From Gemmatimonadota bacterium (GTDB lineage: Bacteria > Gemmatimonadota > Gemmatimonadetes > Longimicrobiales > Gaopeijiaceae): a stretch of 55,409 nt of DNA. Positions 28,650-31,880 of this stretch are shown one piece after another. A program made the position numbers and the translations under genes. Each line of letters opens with the position of its first letter. Position 1 is the first letter of the stretch. The stretch lies in contig DQPL01000032.1 of assembly GCA_015664885.1 (NCBI GenBank), positions 1 through 55,409 of the forward strand, in the 5' to 3' direction. The notes below the pieces were generated by a model. That model saw only the letters and a program-made list of their open reading frames with translations, was not told the DNA's origin and searched no databases.

Positions 28650-29855
28650 GTGAAAAACAGTTCTCCGTATGTGGTGGTCTTCACGCTCTGGCTTCTCGTC
28701 TTTTCGTCGGCGAGTCAGACGATGATCATTTCGCCGATCCTGCCCCAAATCGGGGACGACCTCGACATCGCGGACGCGGTCCTCGGCACTCTCGTGACGG
28801 CGTATTCGCTGATGGTGGGCCTATTTGCGATCCTGTCAGGCCCGGTCTCGGACAGAATCGGCCGGCGCCGGATCCTACTGGCGGGGTGCGGCGTGATGAC
28901 CGTCGCCCTCGCGTCGCACGGGCTGGTCGACAGCTACTGGTCGTTCCTCGGGGTGAGGGTCTTCGCCGGAATGGCCGGCGGCGTGCTGAGTGGAGCCGCG
29001 GTCTCCTACATCGGCGACTACTTCCCGTACGACAGGCGCGGCTGGGCCGTGGGGTGGGTGATGAGCGGTGCTGCGTTCGGCCAGATCATCGGGATTCCGA
29101 TGGGAATCGTGATGGCCGAGCGCTGGGGCTTCCACTCGCCCTTCTACCTATTCGCCATCACGATGGCGCTGACGCTGCCGCTTCTCTTCTTCGGCGTACC
29201 ACAGCCACCGGTGAAGCGGACGTCCGAGCGGCTCACTGTAAGCGGAGCCTTTGCCGACTATGTCACACTCCTGAAACGACCGGAGGTAGCGTGGGCGGCC
29301 GTCGCCTACTTCGTCATGTTCTTCGGCGTTGCGGTCTTCGTGATCTATCTGCCCACCTGGCTCGAGCGCGATCTAGGGGCCTCCGGCGACCAGATCGCCC
29401 TGATGTTCCTAGTAGGAGGCATCGCCAACGTCGTAACAGGACCGCAAGCCGGGAAGCTCTCGGACCGCATCGGCCGGAAGGGGATCATCCTGCTCTCGTG
29501 CATAGGGCTCTCGGTGTTGATGCTCGGCACCGTGCCTCTGGTGACGAACATCACGATCGCCTACGTCTTCTTCTTCCTGACGATGGTGCTCGTCGCAATG
29601 CGAGTCAGTCCCTTCTCCGCCCTGCTGACCGGGCTGGTACGCGACGAGCGCCGGGGCTCTCTCATGAGCCTCGCGGTCGCTCTCGGTCAGCTCGGCTTCG
29701 CACTCGGGGGAGCCGTCTCAGGCCCGATGTTCGCCAGGGTCGGATATGCCTCCAACACGGTTCTCGGAGCTGTGTTCGTTCTCGGGATGGGGCTCGTCGT
29801 GTGGTTCTTCATCCCTGAGCCCAACTTGGAGGCCGCGCCAGCAACAGCGGATTGA
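28650..29855 (+). CDS. MFS transporter (multidrug/arabinose efflux-like)
   Basis: The 401-aa protein has twelve hydrophobic segments, the canonical loop 2-3 motif GPVSDRIGRRRILL and its repeat GKLSDRIGRKGIILL in the second half, plus SPILPQIGDDL near the N-terminus, all typical of drug or sugar efflux proton antiporters. The GTG start lacks a strong ribosome binding site (AGG nine to ten bases before it). Substrate unknown. It precedes the receiver/PIG-L gene by about 100 bases on the same strand. Confidence 0.85.
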   Translation: MKNSSPYVVVFTLWLLVFSSASQTMIISPILPQIGDDLDIADAVLGTLVTAYSLMVGLFAILSGPVSDRIGRRRILLAGCGVMTVALASHGLVDSYWSFLGVRVFAGMAGGVLSGAAVSYIGDYFPYDRRGWAVGWVMSGAAFGQIIGIPMGIVMAERWGFHSPFYLFAITMALTLPLLFFGVPQPPVKRTSERLTVSGAFADYVTLLKRPEVAWAAVAYFVMFFGVAVFVIYLPTWLERDLGASGDQIALMFLVGGIANVVTGPQAGKLSDRIGRKGIILLSCIGLSVLMLGTVPLVTNITIAYVFFFLTMVLVAMRVSPFSALLTGLVRDERRGSLMSLAVALGQLGFALGGAVSGPMFARVGYASNTVLGAVFVLGMGLVVWFFIPEPNLEAAPATAD

Positions 29856-29953
29856 GGAGCGCCCACCGTCGCCCTATCTTCCGGCCCCCATGGAAGGGTG
29901 GACCTATCCGGTCACACCCCGCGAACGTGCCGAAGTCCTCCGAGGAGGCTTGG

Positions 29954-30935
29954 TTGACCGCAGATTCTGGCGCGCCACTGCGCGTGCTCTTCGTCGAGGA
30001 CGCGTTCGACCACGCCCTCCTCGTGAAGGCGTTTCTATCGGCCAGCGGCGGGTATGAAGTAACGCACACGCAGGACGGGGACCAAGCCGTCCGTTTGATC
30101 GAAGACCAAGAATGGGACCTGCTCATCACGGACCTGACTCTGCCGGGTGCGGACGGCTTCGAGGTGATTCGCGTGGCGCGGGCCAAGAGCCCTGATCTTC
30201 GGATCCTCGCCACCACGGACTATACCGAGCAGGAGTATCACGATCGGGCCACGAGCGCAGGTGCTCGCGAAGCCGCTCGACAAGGACGGGTTCCTCGAGG
30301 GCGTCAACGCCGTCCTGGGTGCAGAGGTCGAGCCGAGCCCGGCGCCCGGGAACATTCTCGCTATAGAAGGCCTCGCTGGTGACGTCGAGATGGGGTGTGG
30401 AGGCACGCGGGTCCAGGCTGCCGCCGCAGGCCACACTGTCGTGGTCTTGCCGTTGAGCCAAGACGAGCTGGACGCCGCCGGCGCCGCACTCGAAACCTCC
30501 AAGGCCGCATGCCGCGTCTTGGGCATTCGTCTTGTGGTGGACAAGGCGGCGCTCGGAGACGCAACGCGTCGCATCGCCGTCATGCAGAAGGCCATAGCGG
30601 ACCTGCAGCCAGCCGTGGTGTACGTGCCGTCGATGGACGATAGTCACCCGGCTCGCATGGATGCGTTCCGGGTCGCGAGGGCCGCCACCGGCGACGTTGC
30701 GACCGTGCTCGCCTATCAAACCGCGACAACCCGAATCGACTACCACCCGACGCACTTCGTCGACATCACCGACCAGATGGACACCAAATTGGAAGCGCCT
30801 TCACACTTCCAGTCGGCTAACAGCGTCCGACTGGACCTACGCCCGGAGTTGGCGCACGCCTATGCTCACTACTGGGGTTGGCATGTACGCTTCAAAGAGG
30901 TCGAGGCGTTCGAGGTGATCCAGGGGAGCGTTTAG
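29954..30935 (+). pseudogene. Receiver domain fused to a PIG-L/LmbE-like domain, +1 frameshift
   Basis: The TTG at 29954 (GAGGAGG upstream) opens a CheY-like receiver: VLFVEDA (E15, D16), phospho-acceptor D60 in LLITDLTLPG, then LATTDYTEQ. The frame breaks near 30240-30260 and the next frame continues with VLAKPLDKDGFLEGV (receiver lysine and last helix), then a PIG-L-like deacetylase domain. Removing one G of GGG at 30246-30248 makes one 326-aa protein. The PIG-L zinc motif HPDD is degenerate (LAGD before VEMGCGG) and the second motif reads HPAR for HPDH. Catalysis is therefore unlikely; the domain may bind ligand. accA follows with no gap. Confidence 0.7.
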
Positions 30936-31880
30936 ATGGAATTCGAGCGCGACATCATCGAGGTTCAGACGCAGATCGACAAACTGCTCGATCTGGCGGA
31001 CCGAAAGGGCATCGACGTCACCGCCGAGGTGAAGTCTCTGACAGCCAAGCTCAACGAGCTCAAGGCGCAGACTTACAAGAACCTGCGGCCCATCGAGCAG
31101 GTTCAGGTCGCGCGTCATCCAAAGCGTCCCTATACGCTCGACTACATCGAACGGGTCTTCACGGATTGGATCGAGCTCCACGGAGACCGAGCCTTCCGTG
31201 ATGACGAAGCGATCGTAGGTGGTTGGGCACGGCTGCGCGGGACGTCCGTCATGGTCATCGGCCACCAGAAGGGTCGAAACATGAAGGACAACCTGCGCCG
31301 CAACTTCGGAATGGCCCACCCGGAGGGTTACCGGAAGTCGCTTCGGCTCATGAAGCAGGCGGAAAAGTTCGGGCGGCCCGTGATTACGCTGCTCGACACC
31401 CCAGGGGCATATCCGGGTATTGGCGCCGAAGAGCGCGGACAGGCCGAAGCCATCGCGAGGAACCTGCGCGAGATGGCTAGCCTGCGCACTCCTCTCATCA
31501 GCCTCGTGATCGGTGAGGGTGGCTCGGGCGGGGCTCTGGCACTCGGTGTCACCGACCGCATTTTGATGCTCGAACACTCGGTATACTCCGTCATCTCCCC
31601 GGAGGGGTGCGCGGCGATTCTGTGGCGTTCCGCCGAGCACCGCGAAAAGGCTGCGACAGCCCTGCGGCTCACGTCCAAGGACCTGATGGAGCTGGAAATA
31701 TGCGACGAAGTCATTGACGAGCCCCTGGGCGGGGCACACACCGACTGGGACACCACCGCCGAGCGCGTCGGTGACGCGCTGGAGCGTCACCTGCACGAGC
31801 TGAGTGCGCTGTCCCCCGAGGCACTACTCGAGGGTCGGTGGGCCAAGTACGCGGCCATCGGCGTATGGTACGAGGTCTAG
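30936..31880 (+). CDS. accA: Acetyl-CoA carboxylase carboxyltransferase subunit alpha
   Basis: The 314-aa protein matches AccA over its full length: the N-terminal helical hairpin (FERDIIEVQTQIDKLLDLA), PYTLDYIERVFTDWIELHGDRAF, the CoA/carboxybiotin-binding core GGWARLRG and GRNMKDNLRRNFGMA, PEGYRKSLRLM, TLLDTPGAYPGIGAEERGQ and GEGGSGGALALG. It transfers CO2 from carboxybiotin to acetyl-CoA as a heterotetramer with AccD, which is not in the window. The ATG directly follows the upstream stop, with GGGGAG nearby. It heads accA-ricT-metG. Confidence 0.97.
   Translation: MEFERDIIEVQTQIDKLLDLADRKGIDVTAEVKSLTAKLNELKAQTYKNLRPIEQVQVARHPKRPYTLDYIERVFTDWIELHGDRAFRDDEAIVGGWARLRGTSVMVIGHQKGRNMKDNLRRNFGMAHPEGYRKSLRLMKQAEKFGRPVITLLDTPGAYPGIGAEERGQAEAIARNLREMASLRTPLISLVIGEGGSGGALALGVTDRILMLEHSVYSVISPEGCAAILWRSAEHREKAATALRLTSKDLMELEICDEVIDEPLGGAHTDWDTTAERVGDALERHLHELSALSPEALLEGRWAKYAAIGVWYEV

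Follow-up and report, generated by a model that had tools for sequence, protein, structure and literature searches.

A probably inactivated member of a receiver–pseudo-PIG-L gene family in a Gemmatimonadota genome

The DNA considered here, referred to as the window, is the whole stretch of 55,409 nucleotides of a contig (DQPL01000032.1, assembly GCA_015664885.1) from a Gemmatimonadota bacterium of the family Gaopeijiaceae. Within it, an MFS transporter gene, a receiver domain, a PIG-L/LmbE-like domain and accA follow one another on the forward strand (Table 1). The ORF that contains the receiver extends from 29852 to 30382, and its likely start is the TTG at 29954.

Table 1. Genes, motifs and other features at the receiver–PIG-L locus of the window
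Feature	Position	Strand	Remarks
MFS transporter	28650..29855	+	PF07690, E 8.5e-62; conserved upstream neighbour
Shine-Dalgarno-like GAGGAGG	29942..29948	+	5 nt ahead of TTG 29954; putative function
Receiver-domain ORF	29954..30382	+	PF00072, E 2e-16; receiver homology ends at about 30265, out of frame thereafter to the stop at 30382
Phospho-acceptor Asp codon (D60, counting from TTG 29954)	30131..30133	+	Asp in 45/45 alignable relatives
Frameshift junction	30257..30272	+	11 nt fewer than every full-length orthologue; immediately 5' of the lysine codon of the receiver (30270-30272, in AKP)
PIG-L/LmbE-like ORF, other frame	30261..30935	+	contains the receiver end (VLAKPLDKD...) and the pseudo-PIG-L domain
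LAGD replacing HPDD	30372..30383	+	lacks zinc ligand H12 and catalytic D14 but has D15 (2ixd numbering)
HPAR replacing HPDH	30645..30656	+	Arg at the position of the third zinc ligand, H113
accA, acetyl-CoA carboxylase carboxyltransferase alpha	30936..31880	+	PF03255, E 1.1e-144; neighbour, outside the system

Much of what the first-pass annotation had read from this locus is present, namely a receiver with an intact D60, the changes from HPDD to LAGD and from HPDH to HPAR, the retained motifs VEMGCGG and DITDQMDTKL, and a PIG-L stop codon that directly touches the ATG of accA. However, the single fused reading frame that it had described does not exist in the window. The two domains are in two frames (29852-30382 and 30261-30935), which are one base out of register and overlap at 30261-30382, and no frame is open across 29954-30935. 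The receiver frame gives nonsense past ATSAGA, and the other frame gives VLAKPLDKD, that is, the conserved lysine and the last helix. All of the receiver site residues are thus in the window, but the lysine sits in a different frame from the rest. At the positions of H12, D14, D15 and H113 in the 2ixd numbering, where we take H12, D15 and H113 to be the zinc ligands and D14 to be the catalytic residue, the window has L, G, D and R. No second copy of the gene was found in the window genome; a scan of genome contigs with the window protein returned only distant, stand-alone PIG-L genes.

Of 121 genomes of the same family, 47 contain a degenerate receiver–PIG-L gene or the remains of one, in most cases at a single syntenic position, and 42 of these 47 have a full-length, open fusion. 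Each of the 45 copies that can be aligned over the receiver site has it complete (E/D, D, T/S, K), and the lysine is present in 46 of 46. The PIG-L active site has fared very differently in the 46 copies that can be aligned there. H12 is lost in all of them (30 have Arg), and D14 is Gly in 44 and something other than Asp in 45, but D15 is always Asp or Glu. H113 is Arg in 31 of the 47 degenerate copies and is kept in only four. Positions H12, D112 and H113 vary across the family; the residue combination R-G-D...R occurs in 15 copies and the L-G-D...R of the window in seven. Most of the copies retain a YWGRF-type C-terminus.

The PIG-L-like nature of the second domain, also proposed by the first-pass annotation, is clear for the family, since PF02585 matches all eight members tested (best E 1.3e-23); the window piece alone matches it weakly (E 0.0015, under the gathering cut-off). 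TIGR04001 likewise matches eight of eight members, and a family profile finds 2ixd (E 1.8e-17) and 1uan (E 4.5e-17) in the PDB. Because the structure model of the window piece, built from a three-row alignment, was poor (mean pLDDT 43) and was left unused, it is these profile matches that argue for a retained fold. The family resembles the PIG-L/LmbE zinc deacetylases (BcZBP 2ixd, BshB1/TIGR04001, TT1542 1uan and MshB) in matching their profiles along most of the domain or the whole of it and in keeping D15; it differs from them in that H12 and D14 are replaced in every or almost every copy and H113 in most, and in the receiver that stands in front.

HPDD is kept in only four relatives. One is in G011 (HPDD/HPDH), where the catalytic form occupies the syntenic slot of the family; two are in G121 (both HPDD/HQDH), which has them in addition to its degenerate copy; and one is in G239 (HPDD/HQDH), a member of another family of the class. 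A search of 395 genomes sampled from the phylum found no strong fusion other than that of G239. As there are 47 degenerate copies against four intact ones, the motif loss is not simply a decay of the window copy.

Downstream of both catalytic copies in G121, with gaps of a few nucleotides, come an ATP-grasp gene (PF15632) and the gene for a hybrid kinase with the domain order PAS-HisKA-HATPase-REC-REC-Hpt. This arrangement supports the receiver–PIG-L architecture as the output of a phosphorelay. The same kind of ATP-grasp adjoins the catalytic copy of G239, and none was found in the other genomes of the 121-genome family at E 1e-20. In this respect the catalytic copies of G121 and G239 resemble ATPgrasp_Ter (PF15632) biosynthetic neighbourhoods; the degenerate branch has no link to this ATP-grasp. 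The search for a kinase to go with the window gene itself came to nothing on its contig: the window genome has 20 HATPase_c matches, all of them on other contigs. The two G121 operons, each with the receiver–PIG-L, the ATPgrasp_Ter enzyme and the hybrid histidine kinase, lie at L141:5549-11464 and L142:2223-8018. Near the first are genes for an NtrC-type regulator and for a PAS-GGDEF-EAL protein, and near the second is a PHP-domain gene.

A tree with stand-alone PIG-L proteins as its root included 44 degenerate fusions and the four catalytic ones. A single branch (SH-aLRT 93) separates all 44 degenerate fusions from the rest. The four catalytic fusions are on another branch with a weak support of 80. 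A single change suffices to explain the distribution of degenerate and catalytic forms on the tree. The dN/dS ratios, which are rough because dS is high and near saturation in several pairs, lie between 0.11 and 0.19 for six of the seven intact-fusion pairs and reach 0.46 for the seventh, G007/G088. The two window halves have ratios of 0.16 and 0.14 against G014, and the neighbouring genes have ratios of 0.08-0.11. These values fit a window gene that was constrained until recently and that evolved faster than its neighbours.

What separates the window copy from its relatives is the junction between the two domains. All of the full-length orthologues have a single open frame and a common junction spacing, AGAxxVLxKP, and it is therefore the window copy that is short of 11 nt at this point. 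The nearest orthologue, that of G014, is one open frame of 332 codons with 59% identity across the PIG-L piece, and orthologues from many other genera of the family are likewise unbroken. The two domains are thus one gene in the relatives and not a pair of separate genes. Most likely, an 11-nt deletion split the two domains of the window gene and left it non-functional. An error of assembly or sequencing at 30258, behind which the fusion would be intact and would work as in the relatives, is an unlikely explanation that nevertheless has some points in its favor. The window genome is in 136 contigs and most of the family assemblies are fragmented, the PIG-L frame has no stop for 224 codons past the junction, and the low dN/dS of both halves is what a gene functional until recently would have. 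However, the difference is 11 nt and not a homopolymer slip, the neighboring MFS, accA, PSP1, metG and M23 genes are unbroken, and the same gene has been deleted in G001, which is of the same genus; this would fit a genuine loss of need. The open ORF of 224 amino acids, with a GTG at 30261, could also be taken to mean that the two frames are expressed as a stand-alone receiver and an internally started, stand-alone pseudo-PIG-L protein. We regard this as very improbable, as the conserved lysine and the last helix, being encoded in the other frame, would be missing from such a receiver, no ribosome-binding sequence precedes the GTG, and no relative has two complete, separate domain genes. Programmed ribosomal frameshifting could in principle unite the two frames and has the overlap at 30261-30382 as its sole point in favor; it can hardly be entertained, given that no slippery heptamer was seen at the junction, that about four conserved residues (the GAxx preceding VLxKP) would remain absent even then and that the full-length orthologues are all single-frame.

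Other genomes of the family have lost the gene as well. G001 is the only genome of the same genus that was compared, and its accA is 89% identical to that of the window; all that is left there is a receiver remnant of about 34 codons with its stop within the accA start region. G006 has a frameshift within the PIG-L part, G124 has a large deletion plus a frameshift, and G072 (L123:6769-7698) lacks about 29 codons of the pseudo-PIG-L domain, with the frame maintained. Loss of the receiver–pseudo-PIG-L gene is recurrent in the family and, since most of the family genomes either lack the gene or have it broken, it is dispensable. The syntenic MFS gene of G001 (L073:6525-8577) is itself damaged, with about 150 codons missing and a change of frame, and the next MFS gene is frameshifted; either the region is decaying in that genome or its assembly is poor.

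Taken as a whole, the sequence comparisons make it probable that the gene in the window was inactivated recently and that it belongs to a conserved family of non-catalytic receiver–pseudo-PIG-L response regulators, which would descend from a single early loss of the deacetylase chemistry. The first-pass annotation had proposed a phosphorylation-controlled, non-catalytic PIG-L output. This idea is well supported for a conserved family, with its 47 degenerate copies and preserved receiver site; however, the frameshifted window copy probably makes no working fusion and is only a decayed member of that family.

As for what the intact members do, we can suggest a route by which an ancestral enzyme under phosphorylation control would have become a non-catalytic response regulator that is now being lost in the window genome. 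The PIG-L-fold domain would have lost its deacetylase chemistry a single time, at an early stage of this bacterial family, and would have been retained thereafter as a non-catalytic output. In the intact relatives, a histidine kinase encoded elsewhere in the genome would presumably phosphorylate the receiver aspartate, phosphorylation would alter the contact between the receiver and the pseudo-PIG-L domain, and the latter would act through binding, with a sugar, a metabolite or another protein as its ligand. The degenerate branch would thus carry out phosphorylation-gated binding and not catalysis. We lean slightly toward the fuller form of this proposal, a response-regulator family whose output is a dead deacetylase fold, in which a single loss of the zinc site was followed by refitting as a phosphorylation-gated binder, often with Arg in place of both former His ligands and with the Asp retained, and whose catalytic sister would still work in a kinase/ATP-grasp operon. 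The patchy presence of the gene, its repeated lesions and the variable positions H12, D112 and H113 would also suit a PIG-L half that is merely a residual, functionless domain drifting behind a working receiver. We consider this quite unlikely, because Gly replaces D14 in 44 of 46 copies and an acid stands at D15 in 46 of 46, because the YWGRF-type C-terminus is mostly kept and the protein is full length in 42 genomes, and because dN/dS is mostly 0.11-0.19.

Receivers attached to metabolic enzymes have been described in bacteria and archaea (PMC5847659). The present family is like these response regulators with enzymatic outputs in having a full receiver site N-terminal to an enzyme-like domain and, for its catalytic relatives, an operonic hybrid kinase; it differs in that its output is catalytically degenerate. 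PIG-L or LmbE is not mentioned as a receiver output in that paper (PMC5847659), and no description of a receiver–PIG-L fusion was found in the literature searched, which is weak evidence as most subscription papers lay outside the search. Within that literature, the architecture and its pseudoenzyme descendant appear to be undescribed. Response regulators with an enzyme as output are thus already known, and what seems to be new is the receiver–PIG-L combination and a pseudoenzyme descendant of it across many genera. The existence of catalytic and dead forms of one architecture, one of them beside a probable kinase, would offer a testable route from a signalling enzyme to a signalling binder.

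The MFS, accA, PSP1, metG and M23 peptidase genes around the fusion are syntenic across the family, and an MFS gene precedes the fusion at the same position in G014, G005, G003, G011, G007, G017, G018, G002, G006, G072, G021 and G121. The abutment on accA had been taken as a hint at envelope or lipid metabolism. However, accA abuts the fusion in only a few close relatives, the gap is about 0.2-2.5 kb in others, and ORFs read by eye place an M1-type peptidase gene between the two in G005 and G011; with spacing and intervening genes so variable, we reject this link. G011 also has an insertion (L036:4551-11548, read by eye) that is absent at the equivalent slot in the other genomes compared; it places two sulfatase-like membrane proteins and a long TPR-like regulator between the MFS gene and the catalytic receiver–PIG-L gene.
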